This document shows, in pieces, positions 41,846 through 59,568 of a DNA stretch of 64,000 nucleotides. How positions within the stretch are numbered: position 1 is the first letter of the stretch; each line of letters starts with the position of its first letter. The stretch lies in the NCBI RefSeq assembly GCF_025717605.1, contig NZ_JAJIRQ010000010.1, positions 62,001-126,000 on the forward strand, given 5' to 3'. The notes under the pieces were generated by a model that ran no database searches, had not been told where the DNA came from, and saw nothing but the letters and a program-made list of their open reading frames with translations. Both the position numbers and the translations under genes were made by a program. Source of the stretch: Paucibacter sp. TC2R-5. GTDB lineage: Bacteria > Pseudomonadota > Gammaproteobacteria > Burkholderiales > Burkholderiaceae_C.

Positions 41846-43129
41846 GTGAAACCCAGCCCTGCAGATGACTGCGCCCGCAACACCGACCGCAGCAGCATGG
41901 CGCCGGCGCAGCGCAGCGAACTTCTGATCCGCCTGCAAGCCACCCGCCGACATACCGAGCACTTGGCCGCGCCGCTGTCACCCGAGGATCAAGCGCTGCA
42001 GTCCATGCCGGACGCCAGCCCGACCAAATGGCATCAAGCCCACACGACTTGGTTTTTTGAAACCCTGGTCTTGCGGCCTTGGGCGCGAGACTACCAAGTC
42101 TTCGATGCGCGCTTCGCGCAGCTGTTCAACTCCTACTACGAATCGCTCGGTCCGCGTCACCCGCGACCCCAGCGCGGCCTGCTCAGCCGCCCGGCACTGA
42201 GCGAGATCCAAGCCTACCGCGCCCATGTCGACCGCGCCTTGGTCGACATGGTTCTGCAGGCCGATGCCGACAGCTGGGCCCAAGCCCGCCCGCTTTTAGA
42301 GTTGGGCCTGCAGCATGAGCAACAGCACCAAGAGCTGATTTTGAGCGACATCTTGCATGCCTTCAGTCTCAACCCGCTTGCGCCGGCCTATCGCGCACCG
42401 GAGCATCCAGCGCAAGTGCCTACCAGCTACGGCGCAACCACAATGCAATGGCTGACCCATCCTGGTGGGCTTGTCAACGTTGGCGCGCCAGCGGACGGCT
42501 TTTCCTTTGACAACGAAGGCCCGCGCCATGCGGTGCAGTTGACCGGCTTCGAGATCGCCAGCCGCTTGGTGAACTGCGGGGAATTCGCCGCCTTCATCGA
42601 AGACGGGGGCTATCGCAAAGCTGGCCTTTGGCTCGCGGACGGCTGGGCCCTGGCGCAAGCCCAGGGCTGGCAGCAGCCCAGCTACTGGCGCAAGCATGCG
42701 GACGGCTCGTGGCGCGTGTTTGGCTTGGCGGGTGAGCAGGCGCTGGACCCGCAAGCGCCGGTCATGCAGCTGAGCTTTTACGAAGCGGCAGCCTATGCCG
42801 AATGGGCCGGCGCACGCCTGCCGACCGAGTTCGAATGGGAAGCCGCCGCCGCTGACCTGAGCGGCCTAAGCCAACTGGATGACCAAGCTTGGCAATGGAC
42901 CCACTCGGCCTACCACCCCTACCCTGGCTTCAGGCCCTGGGCCGGCGCGGTGGGGGAATACAACGGCAAATTCATGGTGGGCCAAGTGGTGCTGCGCGGC
43001 GGCAGCCTGGCCACACCGCGCGGCCACGCCCGGCCCAGCTACCGCAATTTCTTTCCACCGCATGTCCGCTGGCAATTCAGCGGCCTGCGGCTGGCACGAG
43101 ACCTCTCAGACAGCCAAGGCAAGACATGA
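41846..43129 (+). CDS. egtB: Ergothioneine biosynthesis protein EgtB (hercynine oxygenase)
   Basis: Non-haem iron sulfoxide synthase joining hercynine to a thiol donor with oxygen, 427 residues. GTG start at 41846 with GGAG eight bases upstream. N-terminal DinB-like domain with KWHQAHTTWFFE (first iron His) and H157-x3-H161-x-E163 in LQHEQQHQELIL, the iron-binding signature. C-terminal formylglycine-generating-enzyme-type domain with GGLVNVGAP, FDNEGPRH, RLPTEFEWEAAA and RGGSLATPRGHARPSYRNFF. It overlaps egtD by ATGA (43126-43129), a two-gene pathway. No egtA is present, so gamma-glutamylcysteine or cysteine may come from elsewhere. Confidence 0.95.
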   Translation: MKPSPADDCARNTDRSSMAPAQRSELLIRLQATRRHTEHLAAPLSPEDQALQSMPDASPTKWHQAHTTWFFETLVLRPWARDYQVFDARFAQLFNSYYESLGPRHPRPQRGLLSRPALSEIQAYRAHVDRALVDMVLQADADSWAQARPLLELGLQHEQQHQELILSDILHAFSLNPLAPAYRAPEHPAQVPTSYGATTMQWLTHPGGLVNVGAPADGFSFDNEGPRHAVQLTGFEIASRLVNCGEFAAFIEDGGYRKAGLWLADGWALAQAQGWQQPSYWRKHADGSWRVFGLAGEQALDPQAPVMQLSFYEAAAYAEWAGARLPTEFEWEAAAADLSGLSQLDDQAWQWTHSAYHPYPGFRPWAGAVGEYNGKFMVGQVVLRGGSLATPRGHARPSYRNFFPPHVRWQFSGLRLARDLSDSQGKT

Positions 43130-44088
43130 CCCCCGTCCCATTTTTGAAGATCGTCGAAAAGTCGGGGTTTGCGGCTGACTTGCACAGCGCCTTGGCCCAG
43201 CAGCCGCGTCATATTTCGCCCAAGTACTTCTACGACGACATGGGCTCGGCCTTGTTCGAGCAAATCTGCGCGCTGCCCGAGTATTACCCCACGCGCACCG
43301 AGCTGGCACTGCTGCGTCTTCACGGCGCCGAGATGGCCGAATTGATCGGGCCGCAGGCGCAGCTGATCGAGTATGGCGCAGGAGCCTTGAACAAGGTGCG
43401 ACTCTTGCTGGCGCGCATGCTGCGGCCACATGGTTTCGTTCCCATCGATATCTCGGGCCCCCATCTCTTGCAGGCCTGCGCCGCGCTGCAGGCCGAGCAT
43501 CCGCTGCTGAACATTCAGCCGGTGGTGGGAGACTTCACCCAAGCGGTCGATCTGCCTGGCGCGCCAAGTCGAGGCGAGGGCCAGCGTGTCGGCTTTTTCC
43601 CCGGCTCCAGCATAGGCAACTTCACACCGACGCAGGCGCTGGAGTTCTTGGCCCTGACGGCCGAGCAACTGCGCGGCGGCGGCCTCTTGATCGGCGTCGA
43701 TCTGATCAAGGACCCGGACCTGCTGCACGCCGCCTACAACGACAGTCAAGGCCTGACCGCGCGCTTCAACCTCAATCTGCTGGAGCGCGCGCGGCGCGAG
43801 CTGGGCTGCGAGTTTGCGGCCGATGGCTTTCGGCATAGCGCATTTTTTAACGCGCCATTGCAGCGCATAGAGATGCACTTGATGAGCATGCGCAGTCAAG
43901 TCCTGAGCCTGCAAGGAATCGACTACGCTTTCGAAGCGGGCGAGACCTTGCACACCGAAAACTCCTACAAATACAGCATCCCCGGCTTTAGAGCCTTGGC
44001 CGAGAAGGCCGGCTACCGCGCCGGGCCGGTCTGGACCGATGCGCAAAACTGGTTCAGCCTGCATTGGCTGCAGGCGCCGGCCGGCTGA
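43126..44088 (+). CDS. egtD: L-histidine N(alpha)-methyltransferase EgtD
   Basis: 320 residues, starting at the ATG that overlaps the egtB stop. It makes hercynine by trimethylating histidine with SAM. Family motifs: RHISPKYFYDDMGSALFEQICALPEYYPTRTE split across the N-terminal region (about 22-55), SAM loop EYGAGALNKVRLLL, PIDIS, and FFPGSSIGNF. The C-terminus has ENSYKYSIPGF, which lines the histidine site. Both core steps of ergothioneine synthesis are encoded here apart from the C-S lyase (EgtE). Confidence 0.95.
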   Translation: MTPVPFLKIVEKSGFAADLHSALAQQPRHISPKYFYDDMGSALFEQICALPEYYPTRTELALLRLHGAEMAELIGPQAQLIEYGAGALNKVRLLLARMLRPHGFVPIDISGPHLLQACAALQAEHPLLNIQPVVGDFTQAVDLPGAPSRGEGQRVGFFPGSSIGNFTPTQALEFLALTAEQLRGGGLLIGVDLIKDPDLLHAAYNDSQGLTARFNLNLLERARRELGCEFAADGFRHSAFFNAPLQRIEMHLMSMRSQVLSLQGIDYAFEAGETLHTENSYKYSIPGFRALAEKAGYRAGPVWTDAQNWFSLHWLQAPAG

Positions 44089-44682: not shown

Positions 44683-45933
44683 CTATTTCCCCGACTTGTT
44701 CAAACTGGCCTGCATCCTGCTCGCCGCCTCTGCAGGGCTGAGTTTTCCGGCCAGCACCAGGCTATGGACCGCCCAAAAATCAGACTCCAAGCTCGGCCGC
44801 CCACGGTTGAGAATCTGCGCATTCAGGCGGATCGTCGATGCACAAGACTTGCGCCAATCCATCATCTGTTTGGCCACGGGATCCAGCACCGGCACAAGAT
44901 GGTTGGACAGGCTGAAAAAACCCGTCACCTTGTTGGTGTAGAGGTCGGCAAACTCTTGCGACGCCATCCAGGTCAAGAACTTGTAGGCCTCCTCCTTGTT
45001 TTTGGAGCGGGGGTTGATGCCAATGCCGATGTCCGAATGGTCGGAGATATGGCAGGCCGCACCGGGCTTGGGCACCGGCGGCGGGAAGGCACCAAAGTCC
45101 AGGCTTTGCGCCCTTATCGGCCCGATATCCCAGGAGCCGGCCGGATACACCGCTGCACGGCCAAGGCCGAACAAGCTTTGCGAGTCGGCATTCGTCTGCG
45201 TCGCAGCACCCTTGCTCAGATAGGGCTGCAGCCTGGCCATCAAAGCCCAAACATCGACGAATTCGGCATCGGTGAGCTTTTTCTTGCCTGCGATCAGCCC
45301 TTTGCGGCCGGCCTCGCCCTGCCAATAGGCGGGGCCCATGCCATTGAAGATGACCTGATGCGTTTCCCATTGATCGGCCAGTCCAAGCGCCAGCGGTGTG
45401 TACTTACCCTGAGCCTTGACGGTATCCAGCAGCTTGAAAAACTCCGCCTCGGTGCCGGGCGGCTGCAGGTTCAGTTCGGCGAAGATTTTTTTGTTGTAGA
45501 AAAAGCCATGGATCACCGAGGCAATCGGCATGCAATAGGTTTCGCGCCCATCATCGGTTTGCCAGGCCAGCTTGGCCGAGGCCGGGAAGTCATCCAATTG
45601 GCTGCGGCCTTGGCCGTCCAAACGCTCAAGCAAGCCTTTTTTGTACAAGTTCAGCGAGGCGTCAAAAGGGCGGCAGGTGATCAGGTCGCCCGCCGTCCCG
45701 GCGCTCAAGCGCTGCTGCAGGCCGGCGTCATACTCGGTCGGCGCCGTCGGCACGAACTTGACCGCCGTACCCGGATTCTTGCGCTGGAAGGCTGGAATCA
45801 ACACCTCCTCCCACAAGACCTTGTCGTCAACCCGCCAACTCTCTATCGTCAGCGCAGCCGCCCGCAGCGTCGACGGCAACAGGGCCGCGCCGACGCAAAA
45901 CAAAAAGCAGGCCAGACGAAAGTGCTTAGGCAT
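44683..45933 (-). CDS. ABC-type sugar extracellular substrate-binding protein (left, orphan)
   Basis: 416 residues from the ATG at 45931-45933. Signal peptide (RLACFLFCVGAALLPSTLRAAA). Family 1 solute-binding fold: LTIESWRVDDKVLWEEVLIPAFQRKNPG, then AGDLITCRPFDASL, FYNKKIFAEL, ALGLADQWETHQVIFN, and the C-terminal FLTWMASQEFADLY. Binds sugars or oligosaccharides in the periplasm as part of CUT1-type ABC importers. No permease or ATPase gene is adjacent, so it either serves a distant transporter or has another role. Divergent from a second binding protein. Confidence 0.88.
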   Translation of the reverse strand: MPKHFRLACFLFCVGAALLPSTLRAAALTIESWRVDDKVLWEEVLIPAFQRKNPGTAVKFVPTAPTEYDAGLQQRLSAGTAGDLITCRPFDASLNLYKKGLLERLDGQGRSQLDDFPASAKLAWQTDDGRETYCMPIASVIHGFFYNKKIFAELNLQPPGTEAEFFKLLDTVKAQGKYTPLALGLADQWETHQVIFNGMGPAYWQGEAGRKGLIAGKKKLTDAEFVDVWALMARLQPYLSKGAATQTNADSQSLFGLGRAAVYPAGSWDIGPIRAQSLDFGAFPPPVPKPGAACHISDHSDIGIGINPRSKNKEEAYKFLTWMASQEFADLYTNKVTGFFSLSNHLVPVLDPVAKQMMDWRKSCASTIRLNAQILNRGRPSLESDFWAVHSLVLAGKLSPAEAASRMQASLNKSGK

Positions 45934-46418
45934 TGGGGTCGTTCGACTCACAACTGATGAAGATGGGTTCGAGGTTCACAGCAAACAGGCCACACCATAG
46001 TCAAGCCACCCCTGTAACGCAATCAAAGCGCCGCCCTGAACGCCCGGCGCAAAGCGCGCACAAGGAAACAGCAAAAGCTAACGTCATATTCAGTCTGATT
46101 TCGGCGGCCAGCGGCAGTCCTCCACGGCCGGCGCACAATCAGCGGCTGCGCATCGATTTGAACGCCTTGTGACGGCGAATCTGTGGTGCGCAGGCGTCGT
46201 GTTACGTTTTTTAACGTGGGCCAGATGCCGCTATTCATGGGGGAGGTGAGCCGAATAGCCCCGGCAGACAGTTCAGCCCAGCGAAACCCCCAATCGCCAA
46301 GCCACCCAGGCGCCCCTGACAATTGTCACAAGCGCCCAATCCTCTGCCTGCTTTGACTTACACAACATCACCGAAGTCCAACGATTCTTTGGCTTGGGGC
46401 CTTTCGCCCCAGGGCAAG
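45934..46418. promoter_or_regulatory. 485-bp divergent region between two binding-protein genes
   Basis: No gene is supported here. Two symmetric sites stand out: TGACAATTGTCA, a perfect 12-bp palindrome at 46317-46328, 91 bp before the right-hand gene, and ACGTT-TTTT-AACGT at 46204-46217. Either could be an operator. I see no promoter of convincing strength on either strand. An in-frame TTG at 46323 could extend the right-hand gene, but this would remove a clean signal peptide. Confidence 0.4.
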
Positions 46419-47744
46419 ATGGCTCGCATGTTTGCTTTGCTCGCATTGGCTTTGCCCACAGTTGCTCCCCTCGGCTTGATCGCTGCCGCGCCCGGCAGTT
46501 GGGCAGCGCCTGCGCCGACCGCAAGCACCGACAGCGCAGGCGAGCTCAATGTCCTGCATTGGTGGACCTCGGCCAGCGAGCGTGCCGCAGCGGACCATGT
46601 GGCAGCCCGCATGAGCGAGTTGGGACTGCGCTGGGTTGACGGCGCGGTGGCGGGAGGCGGCGGCGGGCCGGCCATCAAGGTGCTCAACGAGCGCACGCTG
46701 CGCGGCATGGCACCCAAGGTGGCGCAGCTGAACGGTCAAGCCACCATCGAATGGGCCGAAATGGGCTTGCTACTGGAGCTTGACGGCGTCGCCAAGCGAC
46801 GCCAATGGGCGCGCACCATGTTCCCGCAGGTGACGGCGCAGCTGAATGTGCGCGAGCATGTTGTCGCCGCACCGCTGGGCATTCACCGCATCAACAACCT
46901 CTATCTGAACAAGGCCGTGTTTCGCCGGCTCAATATCGAGCTACCCAATCATTGGAGCGGGCTGCAAGCGGCCGCCGTGGCCCTGCGCGCCGCCGGCGTC
47001 ACACCGGTCGCCTTCAGCGACGAGCCTTGGCAGGTGGCTACCGTTTTCGAAACCCTGCTGCTGGCCGAGGCGGGGCCGGCGCTGTACCGCAGGATGGTCG
47101 AACAGCGCGACCCGCAGGCCTTCAATGACCCGTCGGTGGAGCGCGCATTTCAGAGGCTGCGCGACTGGCGCAATCTGGCGGCAGGCCCGGGCGAGCGCCC
47201 TTGGACTCAACTGGTGGCCGACTTTGCCGCCGGGCGCGCGGCGATGTTGATCATGGGTGACTGGGCGCGTGGCGAGTTGGGCACGCTGGGCCTGGAAGGC
47301 GGGCGCGACTTTGCCTGTCAGGCCGTGCCGGGCACCAGCGGCGTTCACCAGTTCAGCATCGACACCCTGGCCATGCTGGCCGGCAATTACAGCGCCCAGG
47401 CCGAACAAGAAAAGATGGCCGAGCTGCTCGGCAGCGCGACCTTGCAACTGGGCTATAACCGCATCAAAGGTTCGGTGCCGGTGCGCCGCGATGTGCCGGT
47501 CGATGAGCTGGACTATTGCGCCCAGCAGTCTTACCAGCTGTTCGCCAACCCGGCCACCGCACGCGTGCCCAGCTTGGTACACCGCATGGCTTTTGATGAG
47601 GTCGGCAAAAACGCCTTCATCGAGACCGTCCACCGCTTTGCACTGGACCCCAAACAAACACCCGCCGCAGCGCAGCGCAAATTGCAGGGTCTGCTGCGCG
47701 CTCTTGGCCCGAAATCCATGAAATCTGTGCAAGCGACACCATGA
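46419..47744 (+). CDS. GtsA/GltB-like glucose-type ABC substrate-binding protein
   Basis: 441 residues from the ATG at 46419, with signal peptide (MFALLALALPTVAPLGLIAAA). The mature start LNVLHWWTSASERAA, then AVAGGGGGPAIKVLNERTLRG and PLGIHRINNLYLNK, is the pattern of Pseudomonas glucose/mannose-binding proteins (GtsA/GltB). In the usual gts operon a permease pair and an ATPase follow; here none does. Instead the stop overlaps the start of a response regulator (ATGA, 47741-47744). I infer a sensory role, presenting sugar to the membrane kinase two genes downstream, but delivery to a distant transporter is also possible. Confidence 0.88.
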   Translation: MARMFALLALALPTVAPLGLIAAAPGSWAAPAPTASTDSAGELNVLHWWTSASERAAADHVAARMSELGLRWVDGAVAGGGGGPAIKVLNERTLRGMAPKVAQLNGQATIEWAEMGLLLELDGVAKRRQWARTMFPQVTAQLNVREHVVAAPLGIHRINNLYLNKAVFRRLNIELPNHWSGLQAAAVALRAAGVTPVAFSDEPWQVATVFETLLLAEAGPALYRRMVEQRDPQAFNDPSVERAFQRLRDWRNLAAGPGERPWTQLVADFAAGRAAMLIMGDWARGELGTLGLEGGRDFACQAVPGTSGVHQFSIDTLAMLAGNYSAQAEQEKMAELLGSATLQLGYNRIKGSVPVRRDVPVDELDYCAQQSYQLFANPATARVPSLVHRMAFDEVGKNAFIETVHRFALDPKQTPAAAQRKLQGLLRALGPKSMKSVQATP

Positions 47745-48457
47745 CCCGTACGATCTTGATCGTTGATGACGACCAGAAAATCCGCACCCTGCTGAAGACC
47801 TATCTGGAGAAAAACCAGTACGAGGTCCGCTTGGCGCACGACGGCGCCAGCTTTCTGGCCGAGTTCGAGCGCTTCAAGGACGAAATAAGTCTGTGCATTC
47901 TGGACGTCATGCTGCCCGACACCGAGGGCTTTGCGCTGTGCCAGGCGGTGCGCAAGCGCTCCGATGTGCCGGTCATCATGCTGACCGCCAGCGCCGATGA
48001 GACCGACCGCATCGTAGGTCTTGAGCTCGGCGCTGATGATTACATCGGCAAGCCCTTCAACCCGCGCGAACTGCTCGCCCGCATCAAGGCCATCCACCGG
48101 CGCTCGGGCCAGGACCGCGGTCAGACGGCGCGCTACTTCCGTTTCAACGGCTTTTGCCTGGACATTCTGGAGCGCAGCCTGATCGACCCGAGCGGCGAAG
48201 CCTCGGCCTTGTCGGGCATGGACTTTCAGCTGCTCAAGCTCTTGGTCGAGCATCCCGGCGAAGTGCTGGACCGTAGCCGCCTGGCCGAAGTCACACGCGG
48301 GCGCGACCTCGGCCCGCTGGACCGCTCGCTCGACGTGCAAGTCAGCCGCCTGCGTCAACGCCTGCATGACGACGGCAAGCAACCGGCACTGATCAAGACC
48401 GTTCGGGGTTCAGGTTACGTCTTTTCCACCACGGTCACGTCGGGCCATGCGCCGTGA
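47741..48457 (+). CDS. OmpR-family response regulator (GltR-like)
   Basis: 238 residues. The receiver domain has the acidic pocket at residues 9-11, phosphoacceptor D55 in CILDVMLPDTEG, T in MLTASAD and K in GKPFNPREL. The C-terminal winged helix ends TVRGSGYVFSTT, with the DNA-contact segment SLDVQVSRLRQRLHDD. Pseudomonas GltR-GtrS, also next to a gts binding-protein gene, controls glucose uptake and is the best comparison. Coupled by overlaps to the binding protein upstream and to the kinase downstream (11 bases). Confidence 0.9.
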   Translation: MTRTILIVDDDQKIRTLLKTYLEKNQYEVRLAHDGASFLAEFERFKDEISLCILDVMLPDTEGFALCQAVRKRSDVPVIMLTASADETDRIVGLELGADDYIGKPFNPRELLARIKAIHRRSGQDRGQTARYFRFNGFCLDILERSLIDPSGEASALSGMDFQLLKLLVEHPGEVLDRSRLAEVTRGRDLGPLDRSLDVQVSRLRQRLHDDGKQPALIKTVRGSGYVFSTTVTSGHAP

Positions 48458-50048
48458 GCCTGAGCGGGCGATGACGGTGGGCGGGTCTGCGGGCCATAGT
48501 TCAGGAACGGTGGGCGGGCGCGGCTGGCTGCAGCGCTTTGTCGCCTTCTTGTTTGACAGCCTGCAAGGCCGCTTTGTGCTGGCCATGTTGGGCAGCCTGG
48601 TACTGGTGCAGCTCTTGATCAATCTGCTTTGGTACAAGCAGCTGGAGCAACGCACCACCCGGCAAACCGAGCTGGCCGCCCACCATGTTGCCAGCGGCGC
48701 ACTAGGCGCCTTGCGCGCGCTGCGTGAGCTGCCGGCCACTTACCGGCCGCTCTTGATCGAGCAGCTGCGCACCATGGGCGGCACGCGCTTTCTGGTGTTT
48801 TTCAATAACGCCGAAGTTGCAGTGCAGCCCTTGCCCGAGCAGGCCTTGGCGCGCCTGCTGGAAAATCGGGTACGCCAAGAGCTGCTCAATCAGTTGGCGC
48901 CAGGGACGCGGCTGCGCGTCACGCTGGCCTCGCCAGTGGGCTTGAAGGTCGCGCCCAGCGGGGCCTTGCTCGCCGATCTGCCCGACAGCTGGGTCGACCC
49001 CTCGCTGCTGGATGCCGAGCGCCCTGCCCCGTTCCTGGTGATTCAAGCGGAAACCGAACCCGGCCAGTGGCTCTACCTGAGCAGCGCCATGCCCGACCCC
49101 TATTTTCTGGAGCAGCTGGAATTTTTCACCTGGCAGCGGATAGTGCCGCAGTTGCTCACACTGGGCCTGGCCCTGCTGATGACGCTGATCACCGCGCGCG
49201 CCCTGACCAGCCCTTTGCGGGGCTTGAGTCGGGCGGCGGCGCGAGTCGGGCGGCGCGCCAACCCCAAGCCCTTGACCGTCACCGGCACGGCCGAAGTGCG
49301 TCGCGCGATCGAGGCCTTCAACGAGATGCAGGAGCGCATACGGCGCTACCTGAGTGACCGCGAACGGCTGTTCGCCTCGATCTCGCATGACCTGCGCACG
49401 CCCATCACCCGGCTGCGCCTGCGTAGCGAGTTACTTGACGACCTGGCCGTGCAAGATGAGTTTCATGAGGACTTGGACGAACTCGACATGATGGTCAAGA
49501 CGGCGCTGCAAATCGTCAAGGACACCGACATCCACGAGAACCGCGTGCCTGTGCGCATCGACCTGGTGCTGCAAAAAATGGTGCGCGACGCCCGCATGGC
49601 CGGGCAGCAGATAGAACTGTCGGAGCAACCCTTGACCGTCTTCGGCAAACCCTTGGCGCTCAAACGTGCCCTCGGTAATCTGATCGACAACGCGATGTTC
49701 TATGGTGCCAACGCCGGCCATACCGGACTGCACAAAGCCGAGCTCACCATGAGTGAAGGCGCGCCCGGCAGCGCCGAGCAAGGTCAGGTCTTGCTGACCG
49801 TACGCGACTTCGGGCCGGGCGTGCCCGACAGCGCTTTGGCCAAGCTGGGCCAACCCTACACCCGCCTGGCCCATGGCGCCAAGATGCGCGAGGAAGGCTT
49901 AGGGCTGGGTCTGTCCATCGTGCGCGACATCGTCGCCGACCATGGCGGCGCTTTGCGCTTTCGCAACCATCCGCAGGGCGGCTTCGAGGTGCGCGTGGCC
50001 TTGCCTGCTCACCCTGCGCCAGCAGCAACCCCCATCAACACCCCCTGA
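48447..50048 (+). CDS. Sensor histidine kinase (GtrS-like)
   Basis: 533 residues. A Gly/Ser-rich N-terminus (1-30), membrane helix 1 (about 43-62), a periplasmic sensor region of about 165 residues (63-230), helix 2 (about 231-252), HAMP, then HisKA with H314 in FASISHDLRTPITRL and a HATPase (NLIDNAMFYG, EGLGLGLSIVRDIV). The large periplasmic part could meet the binding protein encoded two genes upstream or bind a sugar acid directly, as GtrS does. Its start overlaps the regulator by 11 bases and its TGA shares bases with the halogenase ATG (TGATG), so all four genes are one translational unit. Confidence 0.9.
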   Translation: MRREPERAMTVGGSAGHSSGTVGGRGWLQRFVAFLFDSLQGRFVLAMLGSLVLVQLLINLLWYKQLEQRTTRQTELAAHHVASGALGALRALRELPATYRPLLIEQLRTMGGTRFLVFFNNAEVAVQPLPEQALARLLENRVRQELLNQLAPGTRLRVTLASPVGLKVAPSGALLADLPDSWVDPSLLDAERPAPFLVIQAETEPGQWLYLSSAMPDPYFLEQLEFFTWQRIVPQLLTLGLALLMTLITARALTSPLRGLSRAAARVGRRANPKPLTVTGTAEVRRAIEAFNEMQERIRRYLSDRERLFASISHDLRTPITRLRLRSELLDDLAVQDEFHEDLDELDMMVKTALQIVKDTDIHENRVPVRIDLVLQKMVRDARMAGQQIELSEQPLTVFGKPLALKRALGNLIDNAMFYGANAGHTGLHKAELTMSEGAPGSAEQGQVLLTVRDFGPGVPDSALAKLGQPYTRLAHGAKMREEGLGLGLSIVRDIVADHGGALRFRNHPQGGFEVRVALPAHPAPAATPINTP

Positions 50049-51574
50049 TGCAGCACCAAGCTCCCCAAGAAATCGTCATCATCGGCGGCGGCACGGCCGG
50101 CTGGATGGCAGCCAATCTGCTGGCCCATCAATGGCGCAGCCATGGCACCCAGATCACGCTGATCGAGTCCAGCGACATCGGCATCATCGGCGTCGGCGAA
50201 GGCTCCACGCCCTATTTGCGCCAGTTCTTCCACCGCCTTGGGATTCAAGAAAGCGAATGGATGCCGGCCTGCAACGCCACGTACAAATGCGGCATCAGGT
50301 TCCCGGGCTGGTCGACACAGCCGGGCTACGAGCAATATGTGCACCCCTTCTTCAATCAAGAAGACCTGAAGGTGGGCAGCGAGCTTTTCACCAACGCCCG
50401 GCTGCGCCGGCGCGGCACGGCGGCGCAAGCCAACCCGCAGGACTTCTTCATCGCCGCCGAGCTGGCCAGGCAGCGCAAGGCGCCGTTCTATCTGCCGCGC
50501 AGCGATGGCCGCCCCGCTCCGGCGACCGACTATGCCTACCACTTCGACTCCGGCCTGCTGGGCGCCTTCCTGAAAAGCCATGCCGCCAAACTCGGCGTTA
50601 AACATCAGCTCGACACCGTGGCAAGGGTAGAGCTGAGCGAGACGGGCGACATCGCGCGCCTGCTGATGCACAGCGGCGCCATCGTTAAGGCCGAGCTCTT
50701 TCTCGACTGCAGCGGCTTCAAAGGGCTCTTGATCAACGAAGCGCTGGGCGAGCCCTTTGTTTCCTTCAAAGACAATCTTTTCAACGACCGCGCCATCGCC
50801 ATCCCCAGCAGCTTGAACGAGGAAGAAGACATCCCGTCCGAAACCACGTCCACCGCCCTGCGCAACGGCTGGGTCTGGCAGATTCCACTCAGCAGCCGCT
50901 ATGGCAATGGTTATGTCTACGCCTCAGACTTTGCCAGCCCCGAGCAGGCCGAGACCGAGCTGCGCCAGCATCTGGGTGCGGCCGCACACAACAAGGAAGC
51001 GCGCCACCTGAAGATGCGGGTGGGCCGGGTCGAGCAACATTGGCGCAACAACTGCCTGGCCATAGGCTTGTCGCAAGGCTTTATCGAGCCGCTGGAAGCC
51101 ACCGCCTTGATGCTGATTCAGTTCTCGGTGGATCTTTTCATTGACCAGATGGAAGCGAGCCAGTTCAGCCGCAGCCGCCAAGCGCAATTCAATCGGCGCA
51201 TCAATCAAATGTTCGAAGGTGTGCGCGACTATGTGGTGGGCCACTATCAGCTCAATACGCGCCATGACAGCGACTACTGGCGCGCTAATCGCGCGCATCG
51301 CCATATCTCAGACCGACTGGCCAGTATTTTGGAAGTCTGGGATCAGGGCGGTGACTTCGAGGCTGAACTGACTCGGCATGGCGAGGCCTTGATGTATATC
51401 CGGCCGTCTTGGTATTGTTTATTGGCCGGCATGGGTCGCTTTCCGGCGGATCTGAAGCCTCTGAGCACTGCTCAGCGACAAGAGCTCATGAGCGCTGAAC
51501 AAGCGCGCGCCGCCCTGACAGACACGGTGACGCAGTTCTACGGACACCGTCAGTATTTGCAACTGCTGAAGTAG
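50048..51574 (+). CDS. Flavin-dependent 'tryptophan halogenase' family protein
   Basis: 508 residues. FAD motif GGGTAGWMAANLL (13-25), GVGEGSTP (49-55). Catalytic Lys K80 in ACNATYKCGIRF, which carries chloramine or guides HOCl in known enzymes, and Glu E350 in GFIEPLEATALM; the family signature W275-V-W277-Q-I-P280 is intact. So it should be an active flavin halogenase, needing a partner flavin reductase that is not in the window. Many such proteins of Caulobacter, Xanthomonas and Shewanella sit beside TonB-dependent receptors of sugar clusters with unknown substrates; true free tryptophan is not implied. Here it is coupled to a sensor kinase, and a sugar permease and receptor face it. Confidence 0.92.
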   Translation: MQHQAPQEIVIIGGGTAGWMAANLLAHQWRSHGTQITLIESSDIGIIGVGEGSTPYLRQFFHRLGIQESEWMPACNATYKCGIRFPGWSTQPGYEQYVHPFFNQEDLKVGSELFTNARLRRRGTAAQANPQDFFIAAELARQRKAPFYLPRSDGRPAPATDYAYHFDSGLLGAFLKSHAAKLGVKHQLDTVARVELSETGDIARLLMHSGAIVKAELFLDCSGFKGLLINEALGEPFVSFKDNLFNDRAIAIPSSLNEEEDIPSETTSTALRNGWVWQIPLSSRYGNGYVYASDFASPEQAETELRQHLGAAAHNKEARHLKMRVGRVEQHWRNNCLAIGLSQGFIEPLEATALMLIQFSVDLFIDQMEASQFSRSRQAQFNRRINQMFEGVRDYVVGHYQLNTRHDSDYWRANRAHRHISDRLASILEVWDQGGDFEAELTRHGEALMYIRPSWYCLLAGMGRFPADLKPLSTAQRQELMSAEQARAALTDTVTQFYGHRQYLQLLK

Positions 51575-51650: not shown

Positions 51651-52982
51651 CTACTTCCAGCGCCGCATCTTGTGACCCACCAACGCATAGAACAGGATCA
51701 GGCCGTAGCAGGGCAGCATCACCCAGTATGCGGCCTGTGAGTTGCCTGCATCGGAGAAATGTCCGTACAACATGGGCAATAAAGCGCCACCGGCAATGCC
51801 CATGATCAGCAGGGCGGAGCCGGCTGCCGTGTACTTGCCAAGGCCTTCCAGCGCCAGCGGCCACAACGATGGCCAAACCAAGGCATTGGCAAAACCCAGC
51901 AGGGCCAAAAACATCACCGTGTTGGGCACCACCGGCACGCCGGCCCAGCCGAGCAGCGCTTGCGAGAGGCTGGTATCGGTGCTTGAGCTCATGATGATGC
52001 CGGCCGTAAACGCGATACCGCTGAGCGCAGACATGAGTAAAGCCGCCTTTTGCGACATCAGCTTGGGGATGGTCAGCACACCTAAGCAATAGCCCAAGAC
52101 CATGAAACCCATGGTGTAAGAGGTCAGCACGGCAAAGTTTTTGACGCCGAGAGTTTGGCCGTAAAGCCCAATCGTGTCGCCGGCAATCACCTCAACACCG
52201 ACATAGGCGAACAGCGCCAGCGCGCCCAGCACCACCTGCGGAAACTGGAACACGCCAAACCGGTCGACCTCGGTCTGCGTGCCCTCTTCGTCAAGCGACA
52301 ACTCGGGCAAAGAGGAGAAGTGAACGACGACCATAAAGCACAGCAAGACCGCCGCCATCACGGCATAGGGGAATACCAGCCGTACAGACAAGTCAGCACG
52401 GACCTGCGCGCGCGCGCCAGCATCCAGCGCCGCCAGTGCCGCTTCGGAGTGCATGTCTATGCCTGACAACATCACCGCCGCAAACACCAAGGGCACAACG
52501 ATGCCCGCCCCCTTGTTGAACAGGCCCATGATGCTGATGCGGGTGGCCGCACTCTCACGCGGGCCGATACAGACGATATAGGGATTGATGGCCGTCTGCA
52601 TCAGCGTCATACCGGTGGCCAGCGTGAACAGCGCCAGCAAGAAGATGCCGTAATAGCTGGACTTGGCAGCCGGAATGAACAGCATCGCGCCCACAGCCAT
52701 AACGCCAAGCCCCACTGTCATGCCGTTCTTGTAGCCGATGCGGCTGAGCACGGCGGCCGAGGGCAAGGCCATCACCGTGTAGGCAATGTAGAAGGCGAAG
52801 GTCACCCATAGCGCCTGGAAGTTATTCAGATCGCAGACGATCTTCAGAAAGGGAATGAGCGAGCCATTCAACCAGGTCACAAAACCGAGGATGAAGAACA
52901 TCAGCCCGATGAAGAGCATGGGCAGCAAGACGCTGGGCGCCCGGCTGACCTTTTGGACATTGGTGTTCATGACGGAATCCAT
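51651..52982 (-). CDS. FucP/GluP-type sugar MFS permease
   Basis: 443 residues from the ATG at 52980-52982, with AGGAG upstream; an ATG four codons on is an alternative. Twelve membrane helices. Family pattern: MLFIGLMFFILGFVTWLNGSLIPFLK at the start (residues about 20-45), SRIGYKNGMTVGL between helices 2 and 3, TGMTLMQTAINPYI, and late GFANALVWPSLWPLAL and MGIAGGALLPMLYG. Proton symport of fucose, glucose or galactose in relatives. It lies downstream of the TonB-dependent receptor on the same strand with a terminator between them, so it may be partly co-expressed. Together they could bring a sugar across both membranes. Confidence 0.92.
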   Translation of the reverse strand: MDSVMNTNVQKVSRAPSVLLPMLFIGLMFFILGFVTWLNGSLIPFLKIVCDLNNFQALWVTFAFYIAYTVMALPSAAVLSRIGYKNGMTVGLGVMAVGAMLFIPAAKSSYYGIFLLALFTLATGMTLMQTAINPYIVCIGPRESAATRISIMGLFNKGAGIVVPLVFAAVMLSGIDMHSEAALAALDAGARAQVRADLSVRLVFPYAVMAAVLLCFMVVVHFSSLPELSLDEEGTQTEVDRFGVFQFPQVVLGALALFAYVGVEVIAGDTIGLYGQTLGVKNFAVLTSYTMGFMVLGYCLGVLTIPKLMSQKAALLMSALSGIAFTAGIIMSSSTDTSLSQALLGWAGVPVVPNTVMFLALLGFANALVWPSLWPLALEGLGKYTAAGSALLIMGIAGGALLPMLYGHFSDAGNSQAAYWVMLPCYGLILFYALVGHKMRRWK

Positions 52983-53038
52983 AAATTTCAAACACTCCTG
53001 CCCCAACACCTGCCGCTAAAGTGCTTGGGCGTGGGCGA

Positions 53039-53122: not shown

Positions 53123-55762
53123 TCAGAACTTGGCGCGCAGACCGACGCTGTAACGAGCGCCGTTTTCATACAGTCCGATCGGGACACCATCCGATGTATT
53201 GGTTTTCACCAATTCATTGTTCAGATTCACGCCCGTTGCAAACAAGCTCAGCTTTGGCGTGATATCCCAACTCGCTGTCGCATCCCACTGGCCGTAAGCA
53301 CTGTTGATATTCTGGCCACCGGAGTCAAGGTCGCCATAGGACTTGGAGCGGTAGTTATAAGAAACGCGCAGGCTGATACCGTTCTTTTCGTAATAGCCAC
53401 TGAGGTTGAACTGGTCACGGGAGTTCCCCACAACATTGAGTTTTGGATCACTTGGCTTTGCCTTGCCTGGCACGGCATCGGTAAAGGTGTAGTTAGCGAC
53501 CGCACCGAAACCGGTATTACCGAAGGGCTGCTGCCATTGCAGCTCAAAGCCCTTGATGTCGGCGCCGTTGTCGGCGTTATAAGGGCGTTGAACGTCGAAG
53601 GTCTTCCCGCCAATGACTTCCTTCGTATATTGCTTGTAGGCGAAGGTGTCGAGCTTCTTTATAAACGCAGTAGCTGCAATAACCGCCGCATCGTCAAAAT
53701 ACCATTCGGCGCCAATTTCGGCTTGATTCGCATGAATCGGCTTCAAGAATGGATTTCCTGCCTTACCTTTTGTCAGCACGGTGCCGTCAGGCGTAAAGCC
53801 AGGGCTTAGCAAATCAAAGGAGTGTCGCGCCATCACCTTTGAAACAGCACCTCGGATAATGACTTTCTTGCTCAGGTCATAGGCGACATTGAGGTTTGGC
53901 AACACATCGTTATAGTCATTATTCAAGACAACGTGTTCAAACTTCTCACTCGCATTGACAATATTGCCTTCCGAAGTCTGCTTTGTCTTCACAAAGCGTA
54001 CGCCCACATCGCCACGCAATTTATCTACTGCAAAATCACCCTTGACATAGGCCGCAGAGATTTTTTCGTTGATCTTGTAGTTTGAACCCAATAGTGGCGC
54101 GTAGACCATCACCTTGTCGTACATCGGGATGGCCTTGCTGGCGACCAAACCGTCATCAAACCATGCATATTGGGTCAAGGTGCCTGATGTAGCGCCCGCT
54201 TGGCTCAACATCGGCGATGGGCCGGTGGACAAGTCGGCCAGGGAAAAAGGCTTCCAATCGGGCGACTTGGTATTGGTCACACCTTGGATGCGGGTGTTTT
54301 CAAGCGTGTTGTCGCGGAACTTCGCACCGACGCTGACCGCATTGAAGAACGGCGTCGTCAAATCAAAAACCAGATCGCCTTGAACATAGTTCTCCTTGCC
54401 CTTCATTTCACGCGTGCGGTCATCACCGCCCTGCAGGGTCAAGACTTTCGGATCAAGCGGATTGATGTCGAGATACTTGACGCCGTACTTGTCTTTCGCC
54501 AGGTCCAGTTGAACGCGAGAATCGCCAGTCATCCAGAAGTGACGATCATGCGTGCTGCCGCCCGAGCTTGACGTCGTGCCGACCTGCCCGTGAGCCTTCC
54601 AGTTGTTACCTTGGTAACTGCCGTCCAGGTCCAGCACGTCCGACTTCATGAAGGACTCACGATAAATTGGCTCGAACGAGACACCACCCACCTTGGGCAA
54701 TATGCCGCCGACCAGGGCTTTCTTTCCATTCGCCGTGCTGATGAACTTTGGATCAACGACGTTGATAACGCCGTTCGCGTCCTGCAAACCATCCGCTTGC
54801 CACAGGTAGTTTTGATTGCTGTTGTCCATCTTCATGTCTGAATTCATGTAATTCAGAATGATGTCGGCCTCGCGCACGGGCTTGAATTCCAGCGCAATAT
54901 TGGCGGTGGTGCGCTCGCGGTCCTGGCGGAAGATGGCAGAACCACCACCCCAGGAGGCATAGGCATCGGTCTTGACGCCGTTTTGGTCCACTACGGGCGT
55001 GGTGCTGCCTGCACCAAAAGTTTCCAGGCCGTCGCGGCGCATCGTGCGGGTCTGCCGGTTGACGGCCACCATCACACCGAAGGTCTTGTCGTCGTTCTTC
55101 CAGTTAAGCAGGCCCGACAACTGAGGGTCGGTCTTGGCGGGCAGCTTGCTGTAGATGGCCTCAACGCCGACTTGTGCGGTGAGCTGATCCTTGAAGTCCA
55201 GCGGCTTGCGTGTCTTGACGTTCACCAAACCACCAATGCTGCCTTCGTCTTGGTCGGCAGACGGGCTCTTGTAGACATTGATGCTGCCGACGATTTCGGA
55301 CGGCAAGATGTCGTAGTTGAAACTGCGGGTTTGCGGCTCATTCAGCCACCATTCGCTTGATGAAACCGCTTGCCCATTGAGCTGGGTCATGTTCAGGCTC
55401 TTGTCGGTGCCACGCACAAAAATCGCCTTGCCTTCACCCCAGGTGCGGTCCACCGAGATACCGGGCACGCGCTGCAGCGAGTCGGCCACGTTACGGTCAG
55501 GGAACTTGCCCACATCTTCCGAGCGGATCGAATCAACGATGGCGTTCTGCTCGCGCTTCTCCGACAGATTGCGCTGCAGCGTGGCACGCACGCCGCGAAT
55601 CTCAACCGTTTCCAGCTCGGCATTCTTGCCCGCTTGAGCTGTCGTTGCGGCAGCGGCTTGAGGGGCTTCGTCAGCGGCGCTGGCGTTGTGAAACGCCGTG
55701 GCGCCCAACATCAGGCTGATAAGGCTGGGCAGAAGTTTCTGCTTGAAAAGGGGCTGGGACAT
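53123..55762 (-). CDS. TonB-dependent receptor, Xanthomonas/Caulobacter type
   Basis: 879 residues from the ATG at 55760-55762, with GGAG seven bases upstream. Signal peptide (LPSLISLMLGATAFHNASA). The plug contains VEIRGVRATLQRNLSEKR, SIRSEDVGKFPDRNVADSLQ, RVPGISVDRTWGEG, LNGQAVSSSEWW and GSIGGLVNVKTRKP, the signature of the 'TonB-Xanth-Caul' group, which takes up carbohydrates in many aquatic bacteria. The barrel ends YSVGLRAKF with a terminal Phe. Part of the sugar locus with the FucP permease, halogenase and sensor genes. Substrate unknown; no glycosidase lies nearby. Confidence 0.92.
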   Translation of the reverse strand: MSQPLFKQKLLPSLISLMLGATAFHNASAADEAPQAAAATTAQAGKNAELETVEIRGVRATLQRNLSEKREQNAIVDSIRSEDVGKFPDRNVADSLQRVPGISVDRTWGEGKAIFVRGTDKSLNMTQLNGQAVSSSEWWLNEPQTRSFNYDILPSEIVGSINVYKSPSADQDEGSIGGLVNVKTRKPLDFKDQLTAQVGVEAIYSKLPAKTDPQLSGLLNWKNDDKTFGVMVAVNRQTRTMRRDGLETFGAGSTTPVVDQNGVKTDAYASWGGGSAIFRQDRERTTANIALEFKPVREADIILNYMNSDMKMDNSNQNYLWQADGLQDANGVINVVDPKFISTANGKKALVGGILPKVGGVSFEPIYRESFMKSDVLDLDGSYQGNNWKAHGQVGTTSSSGGSTHDRHFWMTGDSRVQLDLAKDKYGVKYLDINPLDPKVLTLQGGDDRTREMKGKENYVQGDLVFDLTTPFFNAVSVGAKFRDNTLENTRIQGVTNTKSPDWKPFSLADLSTGPSPMLSQAGATSGTLTQYAWFDDGLVASKAIPMYDKVMVYAPLLGSNYKINEKISAAYVKGDFAVDKLRGDVGVRFVKTKQTSEGNIVNASEKFEHVVLNNDYNDVLPNLNVAYDLSKKVIIRGAVSKVMARHSFDLLSPGFTPDGTVLTKGKAGNPFLKPIHANQAEIGAEWYFDDAAVIAATAFIKKLDTFAYKQYTKEVIGGKTFDVQRPYNADNGADIKGFELQWQQPFGNTGFGAVANYTFTDAVPGKAKPSDPKLNVVGNSRDQFNLSGYYEKNGISLRVSYNYRSKSYGDLDSGGQNINSAYGQWDATASWDITPKLSLFATGVNLNNELVKTNTSDGVPIGLYENGARYSVGLRAKF

Positions 55763-55932
55763 GGGTTGGCTCCGTTTGAATTTGTGGACGAAGGGATTTG
55801 GATAAATCAGTTCGAGGCCGCAATTTAGCGGCTCAAGCGGGCCTTGGCGCATGGCGTTGCGTTTTGTTGGACTTCATTGCAGCCAAGTTACAAAGCCAGC
55901 CGGCAGCGCAAGATTGGGACCTGCGCGGGTGC

Positions 55933-55980: not shown

Positions 55981-57309
55981 TCAGACTTGCGGCGCGGGCA
56001 CGATGGTGGCCGAACATTCGCCAAAACCGATGCGGCGGGCACCGTCTTTCGACGCAAAGGCGCGCAGGCTGACGCAGTCGCCGTCGGCCAAGAATGCACG
56101 CGTCTCGCCGTTAGGCAAGCCCAGGCTTTGTTTGCCACCCAAGGACAGCTCCAACATCGAGCCGCCTTCGCTGGCCTCGGGGCCCGACTGGGTGCCCGTG
56201 CCGAGCAGATCACCGGGCTGCAGATTGCAGCCATTGCTGGCGTGGTGCGTCAGCATCTGCGCCAAGGTCCAATAGGCATGCTTGAAGTTGGAGCGCATCA
56301 AGCGCGTTGCCGGCTCACCAGCGGCACGCATGGTCTCGGTCTGCAACCAAACCTCCAGCTCGATCTCATAGCCGCCCTCGCTGCGGTTTTTGTCCGAGTC
56401 GAGGTAAGGCAGCGGCTGCGGATCACTGGCTGGATGGGCAAAGGCAATGCGAAAGGGCTCCAACGCGTCCATGGAGACGATCCAGGGCGAGATCGTGGTG
56501 GCGAAGTTCTTGGCCAGGAAAGGGCCCAGCGGCTGGTACTCCCAGCCCTGCATATCGCGGGCCGACCAGTCGTTCAGCAAGGTCACGCCGAACATATGCT
56601 CGTCCGCGTCGGCCATCGGAATAGGCTCTCCGAGGGCATTGCCGCCGGCCACAAACAGACCCAGCTCCAACTCATGATCAAGGCGCTTACAGGCTGCGCG
56701 TACCGGCACTTCGGCGCCCGGCGGCATCAACTGACCCAAAGGGCGGCGCACGGTGCTGCCGCTGACCCCGATCGAGCTGCTGCGGCCGTGATAGCCGATG
56801 GGCACCCATTTGTAGTTGGGCAGCAATGGGTTGTCTGGGCGGAACAGTTTGCCCACCGTGGTGGCGTGGTGAATGCCGGTGTAGAAATCGGTGTAGTCGC
56901 CGATGCGGCAGGGCACAGCCATCTGGGCCTGCGCTTGCGGCAGCAAGCAGGCTGTCAGTGCAGACTGCTGCTTAGAGCCTTCGGCCAAAGCGTCGAACAA
57001 GGCATGCCGTACGAGCCGGCGCTTGGAAGCGCTTTGGGCCATGAAGCTGTTCAAGTCGCCGTCGGCCAAGGGCTGCAGCAGAACCTGCACGGCCGAGCTC
57101 CAGCGCCCTGCACTCGCGGCCAGTCGCAGATCAAGGATTTGATCGCCAATGGCGATGCCAACGCGGGCACTCTCGTTCGAGCCGGCGCGGCGGAACAGAC
57201 CGTAGGGCAGGTTCTGCAGCGGGAAGTCGGTGCCAGCCAGATTGGCGCTGGCGACAAAACTTTGCGCTTCTGGGTTGTGGGTGTGGTCAAGCAGGCTCAT
57301 GGCATTCAT
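55981..57309 (-). CDS. fahA: Fumarylacetoacetase
   Basis: 442 residues. Last step of tyrosine/phenylalanine breakdown: fumarylacetoacetate to fumarate and acetoacetate. Evidence: [20 protein letters not shown] with the catalytic His and metal Asp, [52 protein letters not shown] and the C-terminal [12 protein letters not shown]. The start overlaps the hmgA stop (ATGA, 57306-57309), so it is translated with it. Length is close to the eukaryotic-type enzyme, as is usual for the proteobacterial hmg cluster. Confidence 0.96.
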
Positions 57310-58592
57310 TCCTGAAAGTTGTCGGTCAGGCCAGCCCAGCAGGCGGCGTAATTGGTTTCAAGCGCGCCGCCCTTGAGCGCGAACTCGGTCGGCAGCAAAC
57401 GCCAGCGGGTTTCGAACATAAAGGCCAGGGTGTTGTCGAGCTTGTGCGGCGCCAAGTCGGCATTGCTAGCCTTGTCAAAGGCCTCGGTATCGGGGCCATG
57501 GGGCACATAGGCATTGTGCAGGCTGGAGCCACCGGGCTTGAAGCCTTCGGGCTTGGCGTCGTACTGGCCGAGCACCAGGCCCATGTACTCGCTCATCACA
57601 TTGCGGTGATACCAGGGCGGGCGGAAGCTGTCCTCGGCCACCATCCAGCGCGGCGGGAAAATCACGAAGTCGCAATTGGCCCAGCCGGCGGTGTCGGATG
57701 GCGAGGTCAGCACGGTGAAAATGCTCGGGTCGGGGTGATCAAAGCTGATCGACCCTATGGTCATGAAATGCTTGGTGTCGTACTTGTAAGGCGTTAGGTT
57801 GCCATGCCAGGCGACCACATTGAAGGGGCTGTGCGCCTGGACTGCGCACCACAGGCTGCCGCCGTACTTCTTGACGATCTCGTAGGCACCTGACGTGGCC
57901 TCAAAGGCCGCCACCGGCGCCAAAAAGTCGCGTGCATTGGCCAGCCCGTTGGAGCCAATCGGGCCCAACTCGGGCAGGCGGAAGGCGGCGCCGTAGTTCT
58001 CGCACACATAGCCGCGCGAAGGGCCATCCAGCTCGACCTTGAATGCCATGCCGCGCGGCAGCAGGGCGATCTCGCCCGGTGCGACGTCGAGCAAACCCAA
58101 CTCGGTCGTGATGCGCAAGACACCTTGCTGCGGCACGATCAGCATCTCGCCGTCGGCATTGATGAAGGCGCGCCGCCCCATGCTCTGGTTGGCCACGTAC
58201 AAATGCGCGGCAATGCCCAGCTGCGCGTCAGGGTCACCATTGACGGCCATGGTGCGCAGGCCTTCGACGAAATCGGTCGGCTCGGCCGGCATCTCTATCG
58301 GCGCCCAGCGCATGGGATCGGGTGGCGACACCTGACCCTCACGCGCGCCGGTGCAAAGGTAGGCGTGGGCCAGCGGCAGGAAGCTGCCGACCACCACCGA
58401 AGGCTGGCGGCGATACAGCCAGCTGCGTAAATTCTCATTGCGCGGCGCAGTGAAGGCGCTGCCCGAGAGCAACTCGGCGTACAGGCCATGGGCCACTTTT
58501 TGGGGGCTGTTGCGCCCTATCGGCAAGCTGCCAGCGATGGCTTCGCTTTGATGTTGATTGCCGAAACCGGCTGAATAATTCAAGGCGCTCAT
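57306..58592 (-). CDS. hmgA: Homogentisate 1,2-dioxygenase
   Basis: 428 residues from the ATG at 58590-58592 ([18 protein letters not shown]); a TTG two codons earlier is less likely. Iron-dependent ring cleavage of homogentisate to maleylacetoacetate. Typical segments: [43 protein letters not shown], and the iron-ligand region [26 protein letters not shown] with the metal-binding His and Glu. Operon with fahA; the isomerase maiA is not in the window. The divergent IclR gene is the probable regulator. Confidence 0.96.
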
Positions 58593-58752
58593 GGGCAACT
58601 CAGGGTTAAAAACGGGAAAGGCGAAGCCGGCTGCACCGAAGGCTTTTTGCCGGCACGGAATTAAACCAGCGCCACTTTAATTTGTCTATAGCTAACCATA
58701 CAGGGAAAATGAGCAAGTTTTGGCGGGCGCACTTCGGGTCTAATCTTTCGCC
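58593..58752. promoter_or_regulatory. hmgA / iclR divergent control region
   Basis: 160 bp between divergent starts. An AT-rich stretch (about 58670-58712) contains TGTCT-N10-ATACA, an imperfect dyad of the size bound by IclR-family dimers. Weak evidence; the gap must in any case hold both promoters. Confidence 0.35.
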
Positions 58753-59568
58753 ATGACAAGCCCTGCACATCCCAACACCGACAAGCATCAACGTGGCGGC
58801 CCACGCGGCATTCAGAGCATCGAGGTCGGCGGGGCCTTGTTGACGGCGCTGGTGCACCATGGCCGGCCCTTGGCGCTGAAGGACTTAGCGCGCGAAGCTG
58901 CGATGGCTCCGGCCAAGGCTCACCCCTATTTGGTCAGTTTTATCAAACTGGGCCTGGTCGAGCAAGAAGCGGTGAGTGGCCGCTACGGTCTGGGTCCGCT
59001 GGCCTTGCAACTCGGCCTCATCAGCCTGCAGCAATACGACCCGGTGCGCTTGGCCACGCCGCGCATCGAAGAATTGGCCATGCAACTGGGCCACACGGTC
59101 GCCATCGCCGTGTGGGGCAATCGCGGCCCGACCATTGTGCGCGTGGCCGAAGCGCCCAGCCCCGTGCACATCAGCATGCGGCACGGGACGGTGATGGGGC
59201 TGCGCGGCACGGCCTCGGGCCGCCTGTTCGCCGCGCATTTACCCACCGACTTGGTCTTATCGGCCTTGGCCGCCGAAGCGCCGCAGCAAGCCGCAGCGGC
59301 GCCAAAAATTGACGCTCAGTTTGCGGCTTTGCTGGCCTTGGCGCGCAAGGACGGCCTTGCCAGCGCTCACGACGGTATCGTGCTCGGGGTCAGCGCCCTG
59401 GCCGCGCCGGTTTTTGATGACCAAGGCCGGATCGCGCTGAGCCTGACGGCAATTGGCCCGAGCGGCAATTTCGACCTGAATCTGCACGGTCCGATTGCCT
59501 TGGCGCTAAAGAGTGCAAGCACCGACTTGTCACGTCAGCTGGGCTGGCGTGAGCCGGCGCAAAGCTAA
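58753..59568 (+). CDS. IclR-family transcriptional regulator of homogentisate genes
   Basis: 271 residues. N-terminal winged helix-turn-helix (about 18-80, SIEVGGALLTALVHHGRPLALKDLA, then KAHPYLVSFIKLGLV) and the effector domain (about 95-262) with GTASGRLFAAHLP and VSALAAPVFDDQGRIALSLTAIGP. Being divergent from hmgA-fahA makes it the likely HmgR-type regulator, probably sensing homogentisate or a precursor. Effector inferred. Confidence 0.9.
   Translation: MTSPAHPNTDKHQRGGPRGIQSIEVGGALLTALVHHGRPLALKDLAREAAMAPAKAHPYLVSFIKLGLVEQEAVSGRYGLGPLALQLGLISLQQYDPVRLATPRIEELAMQLGHTVAIAVWGNRGPTIVRVAEAPSPVHISMRHGTVMGLRGTASGRLFAAHLPTDLVLSALAAEAPQQAAAAPKIDAQFAALLALARKDGLASAHDGIVLGVSALAAPVFDDQGRIALSLTAIGPSGNFDLNLHGPIALALKSASTDLSRQLGWREPAQS

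Follow-up and report, generated by a model that had tools for sequence, protein, structure and literature searches.

The closest described counterpart of the locus reported here is the glucose system of Pseudomonas, with the gltBFGK-oprB (gtsABCD) genes and the sensing set GltB-GtrS-GltR. According to PMC7927077, the P. aeruginosa binding protein GltB binds the sensor domain of the histidine kinase GtrS (KD 0.1 uM), and glucose activation of GtrS-GltR requires it; alanine replacement of five GltB contact residues abolished the response in three cases and halved it in two. We analysed a 64,000-nt stretch of the Paucibacter sp. TC2R-5 genome (contig NZ_JAJIRQ010000010.1, positions 62,001 to 126,000; below, 'the window') carrying homologues of this binding protein, of the kinase including its sensor domain and of the regulator, with a halogenase-family gene behind them. 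It is probable, in our view, that the locus is a sugar-sensing operon of the GltB-GltR-GtrS type built into a TonB-dependent sugar-uptake locus, and that it has taken in a halogenase of a receptor-associated kind. The sensing part is of a known kind in a new arrangement; the partnership of receptor and halogenase is the less understood part. The four genes, with the shorthand used below, are:

46419-47744, plus strand: SBP, binding protein of the GltB/GtsA glucose type, proposed co-sensor (SBP_bac_1, PDB match, contact residues)
47741-48457, plus strand: RR, OmpR-type response regulator, GltR-like (Response_reg and Trans_reg_C, homology)
48447-50048, plus strand: HK, histidine kinase resembling GtrS, also in the sensor domain (HAMP, HisKA and HATPase_c, homology)
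50048-51574, plus strand: HAL, flavin-dependent halogenase-family protein with intact catalytic motifs (Trp_halogenase PF04820, 442 bits)

A first-pass annotation of this DNA had described four genes overlapping at each of three junctions, and the open-frame and junction check confirmed this: SBP and RR share ATGA (47741-47744), RR and HK share 11 bases (48447-48457) and HK and HAL meet in TGATG (50046-50050). All four genes are under purifying selection (dN/dS 0.01-0.16 against two relatives).

The best PDB match of SBP is 5dvf (E 1e-74, residues 30-428), followed by 8hqq (E 7e-58); we take these to be the glucose-binding proteins of P. putida and P. aeruginosa, respectively. The earlier label 'glucose-type' thus holds. 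No second SBP-like protein was found in the same genome at E 0.001. Twelve glucose contacts given in PMC7927077 (W35, W36, E41, G68, Q90, K92, W250, W270, N301, D303, K339 and H379) were mapped via the alignment of the 5dvf/8hqq search; the window SBP keeps ten, with K92 replaced by N and N301 by S. For comparison we read 32 loci with SBP, RR and HK: the window, 11 loci of the genus (L035-L045) and 20 loci (L052-L071) that belong to the genus genomes G003, G012, G015 and G017 or to other genera of the same family. The same ten contacts are kept in 31 of the 32 aligned loci (K92 being N or I); L061 additionally has W36 replaced by L and keeps 9 of 12.

Reference loci were sought with canonical GltB at E 1e-120, which gave matches in 47 of 397 genomes, and eight loci (L176-L183) were fetched. 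GltB shares 74% identity with the P. putida protein in L176 and 70% in L177, and both loci were taken as pseudomonad-like gts loci. Near their gltB genes lie regulator and kinase genes matching the window RR (52% and 51%) and HK (39% in both); L182 is similar, with 49% for RR and 36% for HK. Identity extends to the HK sensor region taken alone: 35% to L176 (E 5e-26), 31% to L177 (8e-24) and 29% to L182 (6e-25), the reference being kinases at GltB-bearing loci and not the named GtrS protein itself. The kinases of L178, L179 and L180 showed no significant sensor-region match to HK. The phospho-acceptor Asp of RR (ILDVMLPD) aligns with the L176 and L177 regulators. Since RR scores about equally on a general OmpR model (229 bits), its placement in the GltR subfamily rests on the kinase and the neighbouring genes. 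The proposed likeness to GltR-GtrS is borne out by these comparisons. Because SBP, RR and HK are homologous to the set in which GltB activates GtrS (PMC7927077), a role of the binding protein as co-sensor of the kinase, as the first-pass annotation had suggested, is likely; the idea is well founded by homology and already known biology.

Several features set the window apart from Pseudomonas (PMC7927077). Here the binding-protein gene leads the regulator-kinase operon; beside SBP we saw a TonB receptor and an MFS permease, and no gene for an ABC permease, an ATPase or a porin; glk is not among the identified neighbours; a halogenase gene follows the kinase; and K92 and N301 of the glucose site are changed. 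As there is no adjacent ABC glucose transporter operon, we class the locus as GltB-GtrS-GltR-like and not as a glucose-transport locus.

The sensor operon does not stand by itself. The four-gene description was right in that the genes are real; it overlooked a convergent pair of permease and receptor genes and a second binding-protein gene divergent from the operon:

51651-53009, minus strand: MFS, sugar permease of the NagP/GluP kind (gluP model passed)
53123-55852, minus strand: TonB-dependent receptor (TBDT), TIGR01782 (598 bits, cut-off 310)
44683-45951, minus strand: SBP2, second sugar-binding protein (SBP_bac_1, 117 bits)

The receptor probably starts nearer 55762, where, judging from the translation, an apparent signal peptide begins. 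MFS scores 222.6 bits on gluP (cut-off 202.55) and 514.2 bits on NagP (below the cut-off of 625); no second match to it was found in the genome at E 1e-10. The adjacency of a TIGR01782 receptor, an MFS permease and a sugar sensor in the window and most close relatives fits a TonB-linked carbohydrate-uptake locus. No hydrolase was recognised in the window locus. Within the close set (21 of the 32 loci, kinase identity about 75% or more; the other 11, at 45-49%, form the distant set) a TonB receptor is present in 19 loci and MFS in 18. The exceptions are L044, which stops at a contig end, L060, with neither receptor nor MFS in the stretch read, and L058, without MFS.

The absence of ABC permease and ATPase genes had been pointed out before. 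It is true of the window, where SBP2 is not followed by an open frame resembling a permease or ATPase gene, and the genome holds no close homologue of the L058 permease (best match 33%). The missing transporter, though, seems to be that of SBP2 rather than that of SBP, since the ABC operon is headed by SBP2 in L058 and distant relatives: in L058 the SBP2 orthologue is followed by BPD_transp_1 and ABC_tran genes (Pfam), and in most of L061-L067, by eye from open-frame lists, SBP2 is followed by permease and ATPase genes. SBP2 is therefore a probable remnant of an ABC operon, judging from the sequences, and its transporter was likely lost once the TonB/MFS route was at hand. The same observations bear on the idea that SBP is an ordinary transport protein lent to an ABC permease elsewhere in the genome, with sensing secondary. 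A glucose-type protein with most glucose contacts kept would suit this, and the genome has several sugar-type permease genes; a binding-protein relative was detected by the SBP profiles beside only one of the four other permease sites read. We nevertheless consider the idea very unlikely, given the 33% best match to the L058 permease, the ABC genes that, where seen, follow SBP2, and the ATGA overlap that ties SBP to the regulator gene in 17 of 21 loci.

As to the sugar, the MFS kind is common to the window and to chitin/N-acetylglucosamine loci (NagP, NagA, NagK, NagB, NagX). L139, a Colwellia locus with a HAL relative, has TBDT, GH20, NagK, NagA and the same MFS kind together, and L065 has nagA beside the sensing module. 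The window locus differs in lacking nagA; the two nagA genes of the genome are elsewhere. N-acetylglucosamine was considered as a certain ligand on the strength of the NagP-like MFS, L065 and L139; the certainty was dropped because both nagA genes are elsewhere, MFS falls below the NagP cut-off and SBP is glucose-type. Other halogenase relatives have NagA and a NagB-like gene (L161) or amylase and pullulanase genes (L144) beside them.

A few further genes were recorded at these and neighbouring sites. One of the genome's two nagA genes (L050, 736-1830; G000:C6:15735-16829) lies about 7.5 kb from a halogenase-receptor pair. In L068-L070 the kinase is followed by an apparent HGSNAT-type acetyltransferase gene (NagX-like in L069, 140 bits against a cut-off of 480), and L068-L071 have a GDSL-like hydrolase gene upstream of SBP (profile test on L069). 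Adjoining the window receptor, at 55981-59568, are genes that by eye we take to be fumarylacetoacetase-like, homogentisate dioxygenase-like and IclR-like; several relatives of the genus retain at least the first two next to the receptor. Two genes at 41846-44088 are, by eye, presumably ergothioneine-type EgtB and EgtD.

The regulator, receptor and sensor genes may be joined by a shared upstream element. Two stretches are of interest:

46358-46384, plus strand: conserved element 5' of the sensor operon, TTACACAACATCACCGAAGTCCAACGA, candidate response-regulator site (AGTCCAWC conservation)
55864-55875, minus strand: copy of the upstream word, GAAGTCCAACAA, ahead of the TonB receptor (shared-word searches)

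The sequences compared are TTACACAACATCACCGAAGTCCAAC (5' of SBP) and GCAATGAAGTCCAACAAAACGCAAC (5' of the receptor). The word AGTCCAWC, picked after the sequences had been viewed and counted on the gene strand in the 400 bp upstream, occurs upstream of SBP in 18 of 21 loci, against 0.24 expected, and upstream of the receptor in 13 of 18, against 0.14 expected (the receptor upstream of L042 was dropped because the sequence was cut). The control upstreams had none (0/18 for MFS, 0/15 for HAL). The core GTNACAA of the published GltR motif, GTNACAAA, was found in 12 of 32 SBP upstreams (2.6 expected) and 7 of 18 receptor upstreams (1.4 expected), with controls at 2/18 for MFS (1.5 expected) and 1/15 for HAL (1.0 expected). 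As a candidate for the site, the published motif is matched in part only, and AGTCCAWC is commoner.

The exact 12-mer GAAGTCCAACRA has seven copies in the 5.13 Mb genome, two of them at this locus; of the remaining five, four are by eye inside open frames and one (L118) is perhaps intergenic. With one mismatch allowed, the genome-wide count was 54 against 49 for the reversed control; with two mismatches, the window gave 12 against 5.9 expected. On these counts the 12-mer does not serve to predict the regulon. With a matrix of the SBP element, no strong hit came up in the MFS or HAL upstreams. The presence of one word at two separate promoters suggests that sensor operon and receptor form one regulon of RR, with this element as the candidate site.

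The place of the halogenase was assessed in the 32 loci, which were chosen by a halogenase or kinase match, so that the co-occurrence of SBP, RR and HK in them is only partly independent. Among 250 genomes of the family, HK matches (E 1e-75) occurred in 20 and HAL matches (E 1e-125) in 10; genome G011 of the genus, with HK and HAL on separate contigs, was excluded. The arrangement is not unique to one genome, a case that the first-pass annotation had named as refuting its proposal: HAL is on the same strand directly behind HK in 14 of the 21 close loci, from 14 genomes. It is inverted in L043, where it lies behind the receptor and permease genes, and absent from the stretches read of six (L052-L057), including L052, which is of the same genus as the window and has SBP, RR and HK. 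No HAL was seen in the 5 to 20 kb read at the 11 distant loci, all of which keep SBP-RR-HK. The halogenase is an optional fourth gene of the unit. Identified records with the complete SBP-RR-HK-HAL operon come from Paucibacter and Roseateles.

The junctions differ in the same manner. SBP and RR overlap by ATGA in 17 of the 21 close loci, and RR and HK overlap in 20 (L037 hinges on the start codon chosen). HK and HAL overlap clearly in six of the 14 same-strand loci (the window and five relatives), L041 is ambiguous, and the other seven have spacings of +3 to +33. The overlaps had been read as a sign of equal translation; this is reasonable for SBP-RR-HK and weak for HAL. These counts also bear on the proposal that the halogenase is a dedicated fourth member tied to the kinase, with the signal or a sugar-linked aromatic compound as its target. 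Its usual position behind HK and the tight overlap in six loci speak for the proposal, which we find quite improbable in view of the many loci that keep SBP-RR-HK without HAL, the unconserved junction and the inverted gene in L043.

Optional presence and varied junctions could also mean that HAL lies between two convergent operons by accident and is carried by read-through, with no link to the sugar; in L039, L042 and L045 extra genes, by eye unrelated, lie between HAL and MFS. This reading, too, seems quite unlikely to us. Two comparisons put the dN/dS of HAL at 0.12-0.16, a sign of purifying selection, and the gene is found near the receptor-permease pair in most relatives, even when inverted. 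The FAD motif (GGGTAGW in the window), the catalytic Lys (NATYK) and WxWxIP (GWVWQIP), as defined in PMC5945002, are kept together with EPLEAT in all 15 HAL orthologues.

Paralogues in the same genome also lie by receptors: the genome has 33 TonB receptors, and each of the six HAL matches has one at 4 kb or less; by our arithmetic, roughly 8% of the genome lies within 5 kb of a receptor. We extended the count to 36 paralogue loci, drawn from this genome, eight genomes of the genus (a weak partial match in G002 was omitted) and six family loci; seven more genus genomes have matches outside the count. A receptor lies within 5 kb in 27 of the 36 loci, or for 35 of 44 genes. Receptors from the sensor loci and from L047-L050 served as seeds of the TBDT profile, so that their own matches to it are built in. 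A separate search covered only named records with a match to any of six short patterns and yielded 42 loci. Four have the sensor operon (Paucibacter and Roseateles), one is a short contig of Undibacterium (L137), and the other 37, with 46-53% identity, are mostly Alteromonadales and Sphingomonadales by record title. In 31 of the 37 a receptor lies within 5 kb of a halogenase gene, and four of the six misses end at contig ends; neither SBP nor HK was matched in any of the 37 at the cut-offs applied, which again argues against a dedicated tie to the kinase. Of the roles once offered for the halogenase, then, that of a signal modifier or dedicated member is not supported, while that of an output, as a co-expressed gene, is plausible.

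Some halogenase loci showed other features. A set of the genus grouped by eye (L088, L094, L105 and L110) had no TonB receptor match in about 18 kb. The window has a SapC-family gene at 59701-60456 (PF07277, 234 bits), and SapC genes were also seen in the receptor-halogenase sets L048, L049, L089, L090, L096, L099, L101, L104, L107 and L109. In L152 the two halogenase genes have a cupin_8 gene between them.

HAL has a described counterpart in BrvH, which we take to be PDB entry 6frl. Both belong to the PF04820 family and have the same motifs; tryptophan is no substrate of BrvH and indole a poor one (PMC5945002). The BrvH gene adjoins a second halogenase gene (PMC5945002), resembling the TBDT-HAL-HAL sets found among the relatives; the locus studied here, unlike these, has one halogenase gene, and it is linked to a two-component sensor operon. 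Among the matches listed in our literature searches, at the level of titles and abstract openings and with few subscription journals covered, no receptor-halogenase link and no such operon were described, nor was any role given for halogenase genes next to TonB receptors. Tryptophan-halogenase transcripts have been assigned to Colwellia and phages, with no TonB-receptor link mentioned in the available part of PMC11337851, and a term search of the available text of PMC7190382 found no halogenase.

Several observations weigh against the combined reading of a sensor operon, a TonB uptake locus and a receptor-associated halogenase. K92 and N301 differ here, and replacement of the residue matching K92 halves the response in P. 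aeruginosa (PMC7927077), so that the ligand may not be glucose. GltB-type genes have no constant kinase partner: of the eight reference loci, three have a kinase with a matching sensor, one (L179) matches in the catalytic half only, two (L178 and L180) have only unlike two-component genes and two (L181 and L183) have none. AGTCCAWC, a post hoc word counted in related and thus not independent loci, is missing from 3 of 21 SBP and 5 of 18 receptor upstreams; the matrix of the longer SBP element scores weakly at the receptor, and the link between the receptor and the SBP promoter rests on the short shared word. Nine paralogue loci have no receptor within 5 kb (L078, L088, L092, which is at a contig end, L093, L094, L097, L105, L110 and L112), L078 being of the 50% group, and L137 (76% HAL identity) has none in the 5 kb downstream. 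Finally, the retention of HAL behind the kinase (14/21) is not required by a purely receptor-bound role.

Taken as a sensor operon built into a TonB uptake locus, the region would work as follows. From the gene content, a hexose, either glucose or something closely related to it (a glucoside or N-acetylglucosamine, for instance), would enter via the TonB receptor and be carried inward by MFS. Homology to the Pseudomonas set predicts that sugar-loaded SBP in the periplasm touches the HK sensor domain and that HK then phosphorylates RR. Through the shared GAAGTCCAAC element RR may switch on both its own operon and the receptor-permease operon. HAL, presumably a TonB-receptor-associated enzyme moved into the sensor operon and co-transcribed with it, would be made when the sugar is present; its family suggests that its probable reaction is the halogenation, with bromide or chloride, of some aromatic compound encountered in the course of uptake.

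A wider proposal, which we put forward tentatively and hold to be unlikely as it stands, is that TonB-dependent sugar nutrition includes halogenation as a working step. Halogenases of an under-described class, spread across Alteromonadales, Sphingomonadales and Burkholderiales, would act on the receptor, its ligand or an aromatic partner of the ligand, and in this genus a glucose-type sensor would have come to control the step directly. Halogenase genes beside TonB receptors do recur in the glycan-eating bacteria examined. In this locus HAL appears to be coupled to a sensor of a type whose working has been established in Pseudomonas, which makes the inducer, timing and partners of the enzyme directly testable. 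The locus also suggests how a sensing set can outlive an ABC transporter and then serve a TonB/MFS uptake route.

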